Below are positions 29,811 through 38,150 of a DNA stretch of 38,150 bases, piece after piece (the first letter of the stretch is position 1; the number at the start of each line of letters is the position of its first letter). Under the pieces are notes generated by a model that saw only the letters and a list, made by a program, of their open reading frames with translations, was not told where the DNA came from and did no database searches. The stretch spans positions 1 to 38,150 of the forward strand of contig SLIZ01000009.1 of assembly GCA_007135395.1 (NCBI GenBank), written 5' to 3'. Both the position numbers and the translations under genes were made by a program. The DNA comes from Wenzhouxiangellaceae bacterium. Lineage in GTDB: Bacteria > Pseudomonadota > Gammaproteobacteria > Xanthomonadales > Wenzhouxiangellaceae.

Positions 29811-30701
29811 ATGACGCCCCAGGAATTCTACGAGCTTTTCGCACAAGATACGGTGCTGGCCTTGATCCGGGCAGTGCTCATGGTAATTGCCGGGCTGGCC
29901 ATAGCCACCGTTTCCGGGCGAGTGTTCAAGCGCTTTGCAGAAAATCGCCTGTCGACCCACCAGATTTTCTTTTCCCGGCGGCTTGTCTTCTACGGAATTC
30001 TCGGGCTCTTCGTGGCATCGGCCCTGAATGAGCTGGGCTTCAGTCTGGCCATACTCATGGGGGCTGCCGGAGTACTGACCGTGGCTCTCGGTTTTGCTTC
30101 CCAGACTTCGGCATCCAACCTGATCAGTGGGTTGTTCCTTATTGGTGAGAAGCCCTTCGAGGTCGGAGATATCATCCGGGTCGGACAGACTACCGGCGAA
30201 GTCCTGTCCATCGATGCCCTGTCGGTCAAGCTAAGAACCTTCGACAACCTGTTTGTACGAATCCCCAATGAAACCCTGATCAAGGGTGAGGTCACAACTC
30301 TTACTCGCTTTCCCATCCGGCGCCTGGATTTGATGGTCGGTGTTGCATACAAGGAGGATATTGGCGAGGTCCGGAGGGTTCTTTTTTCGGTCGCCGAAGG
30401 CAATCTGTTTTGCCTGGACGACCCCGCACCCCTTTTCATATTCACCGGTTTTGGCGATTCATCCCTGGACATCCAGTTTTCCGTGTGGGCGCGGCGGCAG
30501 AATTTTGTTGCCCTGCGCAATTCCATTACCGAAGACATCAAGAACGCATTCGACGATGCGGGCATCGAGATTCCCTTCCCGCACCGTTCCCTGTATGCCG
30601 GTGAAGCCACCGGCCCCTTCCCGGTTACCCTGGTCAATCCCGCCGGTTCGGACACCGACAGCCCGGAAACCGGCGTTGATCCAAAGCAGGAAGATCCATG
30701 A
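29811..30701 (+). CDS. MscS-family mechanosensitive channel
   Basis: Small-conductance mechanosensitive channel, 296 residues, that would open when membrane tension rises to release solutes. Three hydrophobic segments (about 15-38, 55-75, 78-112), the last being the pore helix GAAGVLTVALGFASQTSASNLISGLFL-type with alternating small residues. It is followed by the beta domain (about 118-175: KPFEVGDIIRVGQTTGEV, IPNETLI) and the C-terminal alpha/beta domain ending in AGIEIPFPHR (about 260). A 35-residue polar tail follows. The stop overlaps the ubiB-like ATG by 4 bases, and the gene starts 6 bases after the unknown gene upstream. Confidence 0.92.
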   Translation: MTPQEFYELFAQDTVLALIRAVLMVIAGLAIATVSGRVFKRFAENRLSTHQIFFSRRLVFYGILGLFVASALNELGFSLAILMGAAGVLTVALGFASQTSASNLISGLFLIGEKPFEVGDIIRVGQTTGEVLSIDALSVKLRTFDNLFVRIPNETLIKGEVTTLTRFPIRRLDLMVGVAYKEDIGEVRRVLFSVAEGNLFCLDDPAPLFIFTGFGDSSLDIQFSVWARRQNFVALRNSITEDIKNAFDDAGIEIPFPHRSLYAGEATGPFPVTLVNPAGSDTDSPETGVDPKQEDP

Positions 30702-32386
30702 ACCTTGAATCGGCCCCCTTTGTCGGGCGACGAATCCAGAACCTCAAGCGCTATCGGGAAATCGTCGGCGTCTTTTCCCGGCACGGTTTCGGCGAAATTA
30801 TCTACTCGCTCAACCTCAATCGCTTTCTCGATCCGGTATTCAAGAAGCGCGGGGCCACCCGGGAGCTCAGCGAGCAATCCCGCCCGGTCCGGTTTCGTCT
30901 TGCGCTGGAGGAACTGGGCAGTTCCTTCATCAAGTTCGGCCAGATCCTGGCCACCCGGCCCGACCTGTTGCCCCTGGAGTATGTGGAAGAGTTGCACAAG
31001 CTCGAAGACGAGGTTCCGGCACTGCCCTTTGAAGAAGTCCGGAAAATTGTCGAGGCCGAACTGGGTCGCAGCCTGGAAGAGGCTTTTTCCATTTTCTACG
31101 AAAAGCCGCTTGCGGCAGCCTCCATTGCCCAGATTCACGAGGGCGTGCTGCCGGAGGGGCAGGAAGTCGTCATCAAGGTTCAGCGCCCCAACCTGCGCCG
31201 GCAGATGAGGGTTGATCTTGAGATCATCCAGAACCTTGCCGAAATGGCCGAAACCCACATGGGCAGCTGGGAGATCCACAAGCCCAGCGAGATGGTGGAG
31301 CAAATCAGCATCCGCTTGATGCGGGAACTGGACTTCGGTATCGAAATGGCCCATATCGACCGATTCCGGCATCACCTGGGCGATGAAGCCAGCCTGTTCA
31401 TTCCCGAAACCGTCGACTCTCATTCCACTTCCCGGGTCCTGACCATGGACAAGGTCTCCGGGATCAAGCCTTCCCTGCGCCAGGAGCTGGAAGCCGCCGG
31501 ACATGACCCGGTGGAAATCGCCCACAATTCAGCCGACCTGATGCTCAAACAGATTTTCAGACACGGTTTTTTCCATGCCGACCCTCATGCGGGCAACCTG
31601 TTCGTGCTCGAAGACGGCCGGATCTCGTTTATCGACTTCGGCATGATGGGAACCATGACGAATTCGTTGCGCGAGAACTTTGCCGATCTGCTCTACGGCA
31701 TCGCCTCCCGGGACGAGCGCTTTACGGCAAAGGCCCTGATAGCCCTGACTGATCCCGAGGAGCGTCCGGATCAACTGGCCCTGGAGTCCGATGTTTCGAA
31801 CTTCATGACCCAGCACTTCTACCGGCCACTCAAGAAAATGCGGGTCGGCATGCTGCTCAACGATCTGATCCACCAGACCGCTCGACATGGTCTGCGGATT
31901 CCGATGGACCTGTTCATTCTCATCAAGGCCGTTTCCACCATGGAAAGCCTTGTGCGATCACTGAATCCGGATTTCGACCTGATCTCCGAGACCGAACCCC
32001 ATGTCCGGCGTATCCGCCTTGCCCGGGCGAGCCCTGGCCGGTTGGCCGAGGCCCTGTCGGAAACCGGGGCCGGTCTGTTCACGCTGTTCCGGTACCTGCC
32101 CGCCGAACTGCACAACTTCATGCGGGCCCTTGGCAATCGCAAGGCCCGCTTCGGCCTGGAACACCATGGATTACAGCCCCTGATCCGCACTCTGGATCAG
32201 GTCAGCAACCGTATTTCGTTTGCCATCGTGCTTGCCGCGTTGATCGTCGGCTCCTCCCTGATCATCCACGCCGGTATTCCACCCCACTGGAACGAGATTC
32301 CGATCATTGGCCTGATCGGCTACTGCCTGGCCGGCGTGATGGGACTGTGGTTGCTTTACTCAATCATCCGACACGGAAAAATGTAG
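30698..32386 (+). CDS. ubiB: UbiB/ABC1-family atypical kinase
   Basis: Membrane-anchored protein-kinase-like ATPase of 562 residues, required in bacteria for ubiquinone synthesis or its lipid handling. The KxGQ motif is KFGQ (79-82) in SSFIKFGQILATRPDLLP, the alanine-rich nucleotide loop is AAAS (139-142), the catalytic lysine is K160, and the metal-binding segments are FFHADPHAGNLF and ISFIDFGMMG. Two C-terminal membrane segments (about 508-530 and 537-556) anchor it. E. coli UbiB is of similar size (546). Here it is translationally coupled to a MscS channel gene (ATGA overlap) and is not near ubiE or ubiJ, so it may be a UbiB paralogue rather than the ubiquinone-specific protein. Confidence 0.82.
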   Translation: MNLESAPFVGRRIQNLKRYREIVGVFSRHGFGEIIYSLNLNRFLDPVFKKRGATRELSEQSRPVRFRLALEELGSSFIKFGQILATRPDLLPLEYVEELHKLEDEVPALPFEEVRKIVEAELGRSLEEAFSIFYEKPLAAASIAQIHEGVLPEGQEVVIKVQRPNLRRQMRVDLEIIQNLAEMAETHMGSWEIHKPSEMVEQISIRLMRELDFGIEMAHIDRFRHHLGDEASLFIPETVDSHSTSRVLTMDKVSGIKPSLRQELEAAGHDPVEIAHNSADLMLKQIFRHGFFHADPHAGNLFVLEDGRISFIDFGMMGTMTNSLRENFADLLYGIASRDERFTAKALIALTDPEERPDQLALESDVSNFMTQHFYRPLKKMRVGMLLNDLIHQTARHGLRIPMDLFILIKAVSTMESLVRSLNPDFDLISETEPHVRRIRLARASPGRLAEALSETGAGLFTLFRYLPAELHNFMRALGNRKARFGLEHHGLQPLIRTLDQVSNRISFAIVLAALIVGSSLIIHAGIPPHWNEIPIIGLIGYCLAGVMGLWLLYSIIRHGKM

Positions 32387-32394
32387 CGACGGGT

Positions 32395-33960
32395 TCAGGG
32401 ACCCATTGGTCGGTCCCGGTCGCGGTCGACCAGGCAGTAGAAACCGAAAGGCTCGTCGGACTCGTTTTTGAGCTGGTGGACGGCGAGGGGTTCGATGTAG
32501 GCCAGGTCGTGCTCTCCGAGGGGCTTGTGGGTGTCGTCCAGAACCAGGGTGCCGGTGCCTCGGGCACCGATAATGACGTGGGTATGGAGATGCTTTTCCA
32601 GGCTGGTGTAACCGCCGGGGGCCAGTTCGAAGTAGCGCAGGTCGAAGTTCATCTGTTCGCCGTTGTTGCCCATTAACTCCACTCGGCGTACTCCCTTGAA
32701 GGGCAGGGTGTCATCGTCCTTGTAGAGCTGGCTTTCCCGGCCGTCCCATTCAAAGTCCGGATTCTTTTTCAGGTAGTGCTTCAAGGCGCTGATCTGCATG
32801 CCCGGCAGTTCACAGGAGCTCATCCGCCACTCTGCCGGTGCATGCTGTTGCTCACCGTACAACCCGGCGAGCTTGCCGATGGATTGCCCGGTCACCTCGG
32901 CCAGTCGGTCCCCGGACTTGAGCAGATCACCGCCAATGAGAATGGCGCAATCCGGACCGTATTCGCGGCCCATATCTTCGAGCATGTCCAGGGTCTTTCC
33001 GCCGGCCGGGCAGGGCATGGTGGCGTGCAGGCCGTTGAACGGGCAGGTAAGCAGATCCACCACGTCCCGGCACTCGGAAAGCGCAGCGGAAATTCGCCCG
33101 CCCTTGCCCGGGAAAATGCTTATATCGGCCCCGGACACACGGGCCAGGGTACCCAGCAGAACGCCACTGGCTATGCCGTGGTCCTCCGGTTCGGTCAGGG
33201 CACCGGCCATGGCCGGGTGGGCCATGTACATCAGATCGAAATCGGCAGCCATACGGCCGGCGGTTTCCAGGCCCATCACCAGCGGGCAAAGCAGCACACC
33301 GGGCAGGTTGCGCCGGTGGACGAACTCGAGCTGGCGCAGCAGCCGGGAACCGGAGCCAGCCACGTGGGGCAGGTAGAGGCAGCGCCGGCCGGTCTGGTCA
33401 TTGGCCCGCTCGACCGCGGTTGCACAGGCATCGACCCGGTGTTTGAAGGATTCGAAATCCTCGTGGACCAGGTTCTGGTCATCCTTGAGCAGGTCGCCAC
33501 CACCGCGGGCAAACTCGCCAGCCAGCCGGGCCAGGTGTTCGACGGAGCTGCCCCGGGGCTTCAGCGCGGTGCACAGAAGGGGGCGCTGGCCGATGCCGGT
33601 GGCGAGGCGGATTCCGTCGATTCCGTAACGGGGGCCATGAAGTTGCCCGGTGACCGCCGGGGGCAGGGTCACGTCGACCAGTTTCAGCCGCGGGTAAAAG
33701 GAGATATTTCCGAACAGCAGGTGGAAGAGCTGCCCGACCTGACCGGCGGCGACTTCCGGGGCGTAGCTGACGGTGATGCGGTATTTCTCATCACCCCGGG
33801 CCTCGACGGACTCCACGCGGCCCACCAGTGACTCCCGGATTTCCGGAGTGACAAGTTCTTCGATGACCTCCACGCTTTGTTCAAGAGCGATGGCCCGGCC
33901 AAGGGTTTCCGGGTCCCGGTCGGGCCGGGTAGCGATATAAGTTGCCTGGATTCTGTCCAT
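32395..33960 (-). CDS. RuBisCO-like protein fused to a C-terminal cupin domain
   Basis: A 521-residue protein from the ATG at 33960; a longer reading from 34062 would run into trpS. Residues about 1-370 are a form IV RuBisCO-like domain: KPRGSS (134-139), GGDLLKDDQN (154-163) with K159 and D161 at the carbamate-lysine and metal positions, H248 in AHPAMAGA, loop-6-like FPGKGG (283-288) and GG at 343-344. Residues about 385-521 are a cupin: H457, H459, H461 in the first motif and H495 with N499 in the second. In Rhodospirillum rubrum a RuBisCO-like isomerase turns methylthioribulose-1-phosphate into methylthioxylulose-5-phosphate and a separate cupin splits this to DXP and methanethiol; the fusion may do both. 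No mtn gene is nearby. It is convergent with ubiB (8 bases) and divergent from trpS. Confidence 0.85.
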   Translation of the reverse strand: MDRIQATYIATRPDRDPETLGRAIALEQSVEVIEELVTPEIRESLVGRVESVEARGDEKYRITVSYAPEVAAGQVGQLFHLLFGNISFYPRLKLVDVTLPPAVTGQLHGPRYGIDGIRLATGIGQRPLLCTALKPRGSSVEHLARLAGEFARGGGDLLKDDQNLVHEDFESFKHRVDACATAVERANDQTGRRCLYLPHVAGSGSRLLRQLEFVHRRNLPGVLLCPLVMGLETAGRMAADFDLMYMAHPAMAGALTEPEDHGIASGVLLGTLARVSGADISIFPGKGGRISAALSECRDVVDLLTCPFNGLHATMPCPAGGKTLDMLEDMGREYGPDCAILIGGDLLKSGDRLAEVTGQSIGKLAGLYGEQQHAPAEWRMSSCELPGMQISALKHYLKKNPDFEWDGRESQLYKDDDTLPFKGVRRVELMGNNGEQMNFDLRYFELAPGGYTSLEKHLHTHVIIGARGTGTLVLDDTHKPLGEHDLAYIEPLAVHQLKNESDEPFGFYCLVDRDRDRPMGP

Positions 33961-33975
33961 TGAGCAGGAATTCCG

Positions 33976-34001
33976 TACAATAACCCGCTTTTCAGGCGGG
34001 T
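33976..34001 (+). promoter_or_regulatory. -10-like element and leader stem upstream of trpS
   Basis: TACAAT (33976-33981) is a good -10 match; no convincing -35 is visible. Immediately after it ACCCGC (33983-33988) pairs with GCGGGT (33996-34001), loop TTTTCAG, ending 10 bases before the trpS ATG. All of this fits in the 51-base space shared with the divergent RuBisCO-like gene. No tryptophan-codon leader peptide is present. Confidence 0.4.
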
Positions 34002-34011
34002 CTTTCGATTC

Positions 34012-35019
34012 ATGGAAAAACAGCGGGTTCTTACCGGCATTACCACTTCGGGCACGCCCCACCTGGGCAACTACGTGGGGGCGATCAAGCCGGCCATCGA
34101 GTCCAGCCGTCTGGATTCAATGGAGACATTTTACTTTCTCGCCGACTATCATGCCCTGGTCAAGTGCCACGAGCCCGAACGGGTCAACCGTTCGACCCTG
34201 GAGATCGCCGCCACCTGGCTCGCCCTGGGACTGGATACGGAGCGTTCCCTGTTCTATCGCCAGTCGGATCTGCCGGAAATCCCGGAGTTGACCTGGCTTC
34301 TGACCTGCGCCTGCGCCAAGGGCCTGATGAACCGGGCTCATGCCTACAAGGCCGCCGTGGCCGAAAACGAGGCGGCCGGCGAGGATGCTGACCTGGGCAT
34401 TTCCATGGGCCTTTTCTGCTACCCGGTCCTCATGGCCGCCGATATTCTCATGTTCAACGCTCACAAGGTACCCGTGGGCCGCGACCAGGTCCAGCACCTG
34501 GAAATGGCCCGGGATATTGCCGCGCGCTTCAATCATCGCTACGGAGAGCACTTCGTTCTGCCCGAAGCGGTGATCGACGAACATGTAGCGACCTTGCCGG
34601 GCACCGACGGGCGCAAGATGTCGAAAAGCTACGACAACACCATCGGCCTGTGGCTGCCGGAGAAAAAACTGCGCAAGGCCATCATGCGCATCAAGACCAA
34701 TTCCCAGGAGCCGGGGGAGCCCAAGGATCCCGACAGCGCGCCGGTCTATTCCGTCTACGCCGCCTTCGCCACCCGGCAACAGCGCGCGGACATGCGCAAG
34801 GCTTTCGCCGACGGCATTGCCTGGGGCGAGGTCAAGCAGCAACTGTTCGAACTCATCAATGCCGAACTGGCAGAACCCCGTCAGCGATACGAGGCACTCA
34901 TGGCCAACCCGGCGGAAATCCAGCGGGAACTGGAGGCCGGAGCCGAGCGGGCCCGGGGGATTGCCGGACCGTTCATTGAAAGACTGCGCCAGGCCGTGGG
35001 CATCCGTCGACTGGGATGA
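34012..35019 (+). CDS. trpS: Tryptophanyl-tRNA synthetase
   Basis: Class I synthetase that charges tRNA-Trp in the cytoplasm, 335 residues, matching the bacterial size. The HIGH-type motif is HLGN (17-20) in [13 protein letters not shown], the KMSKS motif is exact (202-206) in [13 protein letters not shown], and the tryptophan pocket segment [18 protein letters not shown] is present. ATG at 34012. Its TGA overlaps the next ATG (ATGA, 35016-35019), so it heads an apparent operon with a fumarylacetoacetase-family gene and two fluoride channel genes. Confidence 0.96.
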
Positions 35020-37038: not shown

Positions 37039-38150
37039 TCAGTATCCGGAGGCTTCCGGTACCTGGATTGACACGACCGGATCGGTTTCGTATTCAAGGG
37101 TCTGGATAACGCGCACGGGAACCGGGGTGCCATCTTCGGTTGCCGGCCGGAAGTGCCATTGCGAAACGGCGTCGATGGCCGACTGCTCAAACACGCCTTC
37201 CGGCTCGACCTCGAGAAAGACGATGTCCTCGGTGGCACCATCCTCGGTGATGGTGAATTCGACTTTTACATGACCCTCTATTTCTTCCTCGGCAGCCGGC
37301 CCGGGATAAGCCGGCTGGATTCTCACAATGGGCTCGGGGTCAGTGAGTGCTCGCCCGGATCGGGAATTGCTTCCGGCGGCTCCGCCTGAAACGGCGACCG
37401 CAAGGACTTCCACCATGGACTCCGGTCCGGAATTGGAATAACTGGTTGCAGAAACGTTGCTTCCGGCAGTTCCGGCGGAAACGGTGACGGCAAGCCCGGT
37501 GGCAAGGACTACGAGAAGTGTGCCAGCGGCACGGCGAAAGGAACTTTGACGATGCTTTCCAAGCATAACTATTCTCCTCTGGATGGTTTGAGTCTGGCCC
37601 CACGGGGTGGCAAATGCTGCCAGGTTGCGGGGGCCGGAAAGGTTCAGCAGGGCATGGCCGTAACGGGCCCGGTCAGCGGAGCGGAGGCCGGCAAGAACCG
37701 ATGCATCGCAACTGAGCTCCTGGTCGGAGCGAAAGGCCCGGTAGGCGGCCCAGGCCAGGGGATTGAACCAGAACAGTGACAGCAGCAGGCCGGCGCACAG
37801 GTTCGCAAGGTTGTCATGCCGTTTTGCATGCCGAAGCTCATGGGCGATGACCAGTTGCATGGTCGAGGCCGGGAGAGATTCCACGATCTTCGGCGGCAAC
37901 AGGATGAACGGGCGGAGAAGGCCGGCGACCAGCGGGGTTTCGGTATTCCGTGAAACGCAAATGCGTTCGGAAGAAAACCGACCGGTGCCGGGTGGCATGG
38001 TTATCTTCCCGCGCAGGGGCCGGCTGCCGGCAACAAGATTCCGCGCGGCGAGGATCCTTGCTGCCAGGTGACCCAGCATGAGTGTACTGCCGGCAAGCCA
38101 GGCGATCAGCAACCAATTCAGTGCATTGCCCCCGGTGGCCAAAGCCTCAG
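37039..38150 (-). CDS. M56-family (BlaR1-like) metallopeptidase fused to a TonB C-terminal domain, N-terminus beyond the window
   Basis: The reading frame is open to the right edge, so the start and probably the first membrane segments lie outside. The visible part has a membrane segment, then the gluzincin motif HELRH (codons 37828-37842) with ELSCDASV further on, typical of M56 peptidases related to BlaR1/MecR1. After another membrane segment comes a Gly/Ser/Ala-rich linker and a C-terminal TonB-like domain (PIVRIQPAYP, GHVKVEFTITEDG, AIDAVSQWHFRPA). Such fusions occur in proteobacteria and are often next to a BlaI-like repressor. The function may be sensing and signalling at the membrane; antibiotic resistance cannot be inferred. 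Confidence 0.88.
   Translation of the reverse strand, partial: EALATGGNALNWLLIAWLAGSTLMLGHLAARILAARNLVAGSRPLRGKITMPPGTGRFSSERICVSRNTETPLVAGLLRPFILLPPKIVESLPASTMQLVIAHELRHAKRHDNLANLCAGLLLSLFWFNPLAWAAYRAFRSDQELSCDASVLAGLRSADRARYGHALLNLSGPRNLAAFATPWGQTQTIQRRIVMLGKHRQSSFRRAAGTLLVVLATGLAVTVSAGTAGSNVSATSYSNSGPESMVEVLAVAVSGGAAGSNSRSGRALTDPEPIVRIQPAYPGPAAEEEIEGHVKVEFTITEDGATEDIVFLEVEPEGVFEQSAIDAVSQWHFRPATEDGTPVPVRVIQTLEYETDPVVSIQVPEASGY
37366..37510 (-). repeat. Imperfect internal duplication in the linker of the M56-TonB gene
   Basis: Segments at about 37366-37408 and 37456-37510 are similar (both contain TTGCTTCCGGC...TTCCGCC-like and ...CAAGGAC blocks) and encode related peptides, AVTVSAGTAGSN and AVAVSGGAAGSN. 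They are separated by about 48 bases. Confidence 0.5.

Follow-up and report, generated by a model that had tools for sequence, protein, structure and literature searches.

In the window, by which we mean the whole stretch of 38,150 nucleotides that was analysed, a RuBisCO-like protein (RLP) and a cupin are fused in one reading frame of 521 residues. What is new is the fused form of a known enzyme pair, a form which is conserved and probably functional. We consider the fusion likely to be a bifunctional enzyme, combining a methylthioribulose-1-phosphate (MTRu-1P) isomerase with a methylthioxylulose-5-phosphate (MTXu-5P) methylsulfurylase, which would make DXP and methanethiol.

One reading frame encodes an RLP and a cupin

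The fused gene is located on the minus strand (32395..33960), with an ATG start at 33960, a stop codon at 32397-32395 and no internal stops, confirming the single frame of the original prediction. Pfam models matched RuBisCO_large (residues 125-279, 9e-18) and Cupin_2 (residues 443-510, 3.9e-9) in the same chain, and an AlphaFold model of the 521-residue protein, built from 27 sequences, has a mean pLDDT of 87 and two folded domains separated by a low-confidence linker (378-411), with 3qfw as the best PDB match (TM 0.91 by target length). The domain borders were found at residues 1-372 and 399-521, close to those first proposed (RLP about 1-370, cupin about 385-521). Neither a frameshift nor an error of assembly can be its source, since ten other genomes have the same fusion, with 42-49% identity.

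The gene had been described as standing between ubiB and trpS without a pathway neighbour, and this was borne out. It is flanked by a convergent ABC1/UbiB-like gene (30698..32386, plus strand) at a distance of 8 bases, and by a divergent trpS-like gene (34012..35019, plus strand) which adjoins the RLP gene in many genomes of the family, while no pathway partners were recognised among the neighbouring genes of the fusion loci looked at. Between the start of the fusion gene and trpS lie 51 bases (33961-34011), which contain a short hairpin (ACCCGC/GCGGGT, 33983-34001), and near the end of the window a single minus-strand gene (37039-38142) combines a BlaR1-type M56 peptidase domain with a TonB C-terminal domain.

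The RuBisCO-like half

The RuBisCO-like domain (residues 1-372; 32845..33960, minus strand) is a predicted MTRu-1P 1,3-isomerase. The closest solved structure by sequence to residues 3-372 is 3qfw, the R. palustris RLP1 (3.9e-66, 37.5% identity), and in the RLP tree the fused RLPs group with RLP1, set apart by a 100/100 branch from the remaining RLPs that served as outgroup. MtnW, the 2,3-diketo-5-methylthiopentyl-1-P enolase of Bacillus methionine salvage, has the RLP fold in common with the fusion (E-value of 1.7e-50 against the NCBIfam model), but the fusion protein scores 171.8 against a cut-off of 409 and lacks the MtnW-type loop motifs.

In an alignment of 27 RLPs, Lys134 in the LKP motif, the equivalent of the general base K175 of RuBisCO (33559..33561, minus strand), is invariant, as are Lys159, Asp160 and Asp161 of the carbamylated-Lys and metal-ligand motif KDDQN (33478..33486, minus strand), while H248 and the phosphate-site motifs GGR and GG are invariant or nearly so. 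The position of RuBisCO E204 is occupied by Gln162 here (KDDQN), whereas RLP1 has His (KDDHG). The His version is shared by those separate RLPs whose gene adjoins a cupin gene and by the fused RLP of genome G103, and the Gln version by our protein, nine other fusions, their cupin-less sisters (see below) and G374. We know of no published rule that makes the His after KDD defining for MTRu-1P 1,3-isomerase RLPs.

RLPs of other kinds were also seen. Genome G034 has a second, divergent RLP (L050, G034:C120), which is 34% identical and cut by the end of a 9.8 kb contig that also contains a second mtnA copy. The cupin-less RLPs of G219 and G274 directly adjoin split transketolase genes (L093:7030-9146 and L096:9035-12197), of which both genomes have the C-terminal half and G274 the N-terminal half as well. 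Against the DXS model the C-terminal halves reach 164-179 bits, and this arrangement suggests a different RLP pathway.

With some family members adjoining split transketolases, function within the RLP family probably varies, and the RLP half of the fusion could itself have drifted to a related reaction, for example one giving more of the MTRu-5P epimer or involving a different deoxy- or methylthio-sugar phosphate, whose product the cupin would then use. The KDDQN motif common to fused RLPs and cupin-less sisters, as opposed to KDDHG in RLP1, would fit such a drift, as would the 3:1 product mixture already given by the R. rubrum RLP (PMC4958253). Still, the Cys and metal ligands of the methylsulfurylase are kept in the cupin, and retention of the fusion across at least five families fits two consecutive steps, so that we regard the drift as unlikely and favour the MTRu-1P isomerase for this half.

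The cupin half and the linker

The cupin domain (residues 399-521; 32398..32766, minus strand) is a predicted MTXu-5P methylsulfurylase, and the suspected relation to the R. rubrum methylsulfurylase Rru_A2000 holds, with 34% identity and with the Cys and metal ligands kept. Among solved structures, this C-terminal part matched 3ibm (2.7e-30) and 3jzv, which is Rru_A2000 (6.8e-20). The predicted catalytic Cys509 (GFYCLVDRDRDRP; 32434..32436, minus strand) is situated in the motif GF[YFL]C, is invariant in all 23 aligned cupins and corresponds to a Cys of Rru_A2000 that is the sole one within the aligned region. The metal-site residues E-x-H-x-H-x-H and a later His-Gln are also kept, with the metal-site His and Glu invariant in 23/23 cupins. 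Warlick et al. in 2012 are said to have found that the active-site Cys of Rru_A2000 forms a methyl disulfide. Separate cupins have a C-terminal extension of some 25 residues, and this is missing from the fused ones.

The linker between the domains (residues 373-398; 32767..32844, minus strand) is mostly predicted to be disordered (pLDDT <50 over 378-411), and in a comparison of the 11 fusions it was weakly conserved with one exception, the motif SSCELPG (residues 381-387; 32800..32820, minus strand) with the conserved Cys383, which recurs as S-[SA]-C-[ED] in the linkers of seven of the 11 fusions, from four families. It is absent from the linkers of G009, G010 and G103, and G011 has SSCELP at the C-terminus of the protein (Cys543) instead. 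Among the separate cupins and RLPs inspected, none showed an SSCELP-like pattern, which had one further match in the DNA examined, in an unrelated frame, and was not the subject of any paper found in the open literature. The channelling of an intermediate, first suggested on the basis of the fusion, found no support here, given a linker that is predicted to be disordered. Our hypothesis is that Cys383 may act as a resolving thiol for a methyl disulfide on Cys509, although four of the 11 fusions have no Cys motif in the linker, which is a point against this role. The conserved linker Cys thus offers a specific and testable mechanistic prediction, which is independent of the DXS question discussed below.

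Distribution and history of the fusion

The fusion is not the lone oddity that it had first appeared to be, as 11 fusions were found in at least five gammaproteobacterial families. In the 43 genomes of its own family, 30 have an RLP and only four a cupin, always in fused form (G009, G010, G011 and G000, the genome that contains the window), and outside this family fusions were found in G190, G302, G086, G227, G103, G440 and G452. Separate RLP and cupin genes are adjacent in G114, G244, G304, G192, G255, G133 and G356, and unlinked in G374 and G056, while 399 genomes drawn from the phylum yielded no additional fusion.

Trees of both halves had been proposed together with such a survey. In the cupin tree, the 11 fused cupins constitute a clade of their own (100/100) beside the clade holding Rru_A2000, and judged by this tree the cupin of the fusion has a single origin. 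Among the RLPs, the sister group of G000 consists of 14 cupin-less proteins (100/99), and the fused G009-G011 are in turn sister to all of these together (100/99), within a larger and otherwise fused group. The fused RLPs are not one clade because the cupin-less sisters nest inside, and both a single clade of fused genes (p-AU 8.5e-46) and a grouping of the four f1 fusions (p-AU 0.0005) were rejected. In many of the genomes examined the RLP gene adjoins trpS in both the fused and the cupin-less state, which supports orthology. The simplest reading, of a tree that alone is no proof of gain versus loss, would be one fusion event, after which the g6/g7 lineage lost its cupin.

At least 14 cupin-less RLPs of the genera g6/g7 (L036-L049) are 46-56% identical to the RLP half of the fusion and keep the active-site motifs, and their host genomes lack DXS and DXR where tested, but have pdxJ.

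The survival of the RLP in a sister lineage that lost the cupin domain would fit a cupin half that is a sensor or structural add-on and no enzyme. Cupins are often regulatory, and the missing C-terminal extension could be taken in the same sense. Against this, none of the 11 fusions departs from the catalytic Cys or the metal-binding residues, and the closest relatives of the fused cupins include a characterised methylsulfurylase, which makes a non-enzymatic role very improbable in our view and leaves methylsulfurylase as the preferred function.

A possible source of DXP

The substrate of the proposed enzyme would come from methylthioadenosine (MTA), and a search for mtnA, mtnP or mtnK had been suggested. 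In G000, which is 92% complete, mtnA was found at 394 bits, above its cut-off, and an MTAP-like phosphorylase at 236 bits, below the curated cut-off. With these two genes a route to MTRu-1P probably exists, its phosphorylase step being likely rather than certain. The idea of a two-step enzyme like the R. rubrum pair therefore stands as far as homology of both halves, retained catalytic residues and upstream genes are concerned, while its two activities are deduced from sequence. An RLP half in a clade of other function, an unrelated cupin and the lack of a route to MTRu-1P had been named as findings that would speak against the idea, and none of the three was encountered.

In the proposed mechanism, the MTAP-like phosphorylase would convert MTA to MTR-1P and MtnA would convert MTR-1P to MTRu-1P, from which the RLP half would form 1-methylthioxylulose-5P. 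Transfer of the methylthio group to Cys509 of the cupin half would then give a Cys-S-S-CH3 intermediate and release DXP, and a thiol, for which the linker Cys383 is a candidate, would free methanethiol from this intermediate, while the DXP would go to DXR (MEP isoprenoids) and to PdxJ. Long conservation of the fusion adds to the case for a two-step enzyme made by the homology to a characterised pair and the retained catalytic residues; Gln162 in place of the His of RLP1, the MTAP match below its cut-off and the 92% completeness of G000 are points against the main reading.

Both consumers of DXP are present in G000, with pdxJ at 309 bits and dxr at 461 bits in the canonical rpsB-tsf-dxr-rseP-bamA locus, in which rpsB, tsf, rseP and bamA were named by eye from the sequence. 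Bin contamination was rejected as an origin of dxr, with GC and tetranucleotide profile of its contig fitting G000 and the locus being canonical. DXS was not found in G000, where the best match reached 50 bits and the cut-off is 466, although 13 of the 29 genomes in the same search do have DXS, with scores of 768-928 bits. Another contig, L129 (G000:C260), is unlike the rest of the genome sampled in its composition (GC 0.547, tetranucleotide r 0.43), and is a possible contaminant or mobile element.

As G000 has DXR and PdxJ and no recognisable DXS, the fusion is plausibly its main DXP source, a proposal to which we give slightly less than even odds, and with these genes around it in the genome it is a good candidate to have replaced DXS in nature. 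DXR without DXS was also seen in G440, G452, G086 and G114, all of which have RLP and cupin, either fused or adjacent. G086 is a complete chromosome in a single contig, and DXS as well as the fusion is found in its congener G227, giving a natural before-and-after pair. DXS is likewise kept in the fused G103, G190 and G302, and the fusion is therefore not tied to DXS loss; the genomes in the DXS search were picked for carrying an RLP, and thus the association of fusion and DXS loss is not an unbiased test.

Neither DXS nor DXR was found in the fused G009-G011 or in those g6/g7 genomes that were tested, all of which have pdxJ and presumably use mevalonate for isoprenoids. We had expected pdxJ only alongside a visible DXP source, and this expectation failed, as pdxJ was found in 40/40 genomes examined, including the RLP-free relatives G001-G008, in which DXR was absent where tested. 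With pdxJ present in g7 without DXS, DXR or cupin, and in the RLP-free relatives, there may be another DXP source in the family.

This leads to an alternative in which the fusion has the same two activities and serves solely to salvage methionine sulfur and detoxify MTA, while most of the DXP comes from a different source that was not recognised and the absence of DXS is coincidental. It contests only the role as main DXP source, and fits the retention of DXS in several fusion genomes, the presence of PdxJ in relatives without this RLP, and the use of the shunt mainly for sulfur in R. rubrum and R. palustris (PMC4958253, PMC5893883). Other bypasses must also exist, since 181 species with the MEP pathway lack only Dxs, and just five of these have both shunt enzymes, for which the shunt was proposed as a possible Dxs replacement (PMC10663253). 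On the other side, no alternative DXP source was seen in G000 among the few looked for, and the four other genomes with DXR and without DXS all carry RLP and cupin. We consider salvage alone a serious possibility, if somewhat on the doubtful side.

Returning to the fusion as a DXP source, its most far-reaching version would be a single-polypeptide route from a polyamine by-product that is the sole source of DXP, replacing DXS in some gammaproteobacteria, with a linker Cys arm that resolves the methyl disulfide within the same chain; taken as a whole this is speculative and rather unlikely. If true, it would make the supply of isoprenoids and PLP dependent on the synthesis of polyamines, through a compact DXP-making enzyme, and it bears on the question of how MEP-pathway bacteria without DXS obtain their DXP (PMC10663253).

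Comparison with known systems

No description of an RLP-cupin fusion was found in the open literature; subscription papers and domain-architecture databases were outside the scope of this search, and an earlier mention is possible. Fused MTA-metabolism enzymes are known from Tetrahymena, where MtnBD and MtnAK are likewise fusions, but of other enzymes, which belong to the canonical oxygen-dependent pathway of a eukaryote (PMC3698126, PMC6302742). The solved cupin closest to the fused one is 3ibm, with 48% identity and the same Cys and metal-binding motif, but it is a separate protein outside the fused-cupin clade. We take 3ibm to be a cupin from H. halophila.

The systems most similar to the fusion are the R. 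rubrum MTRu-1P isomerase Rru_A1998 with the MTXu-5P methylsulfurylase Rru_A2000, and the R. palustris RLP1 (RPA2169, 3qfw) with the cupin RPA2170. Their activities have been characterised, and as separate pairs they constitute the MTA-isoprenoid shunt (PMC5893883, PMC4958253). The same two enzyme types, with the catalytic residues kept, are predicted here, whereas the system described in this study differs from both pairs in being one polypeptide, in having Gln rather than His at the E204 position, a linker with a conserved Cys and a cupin without the C-terminal extension, and in being encoded in a genome without a recognisable DXS.
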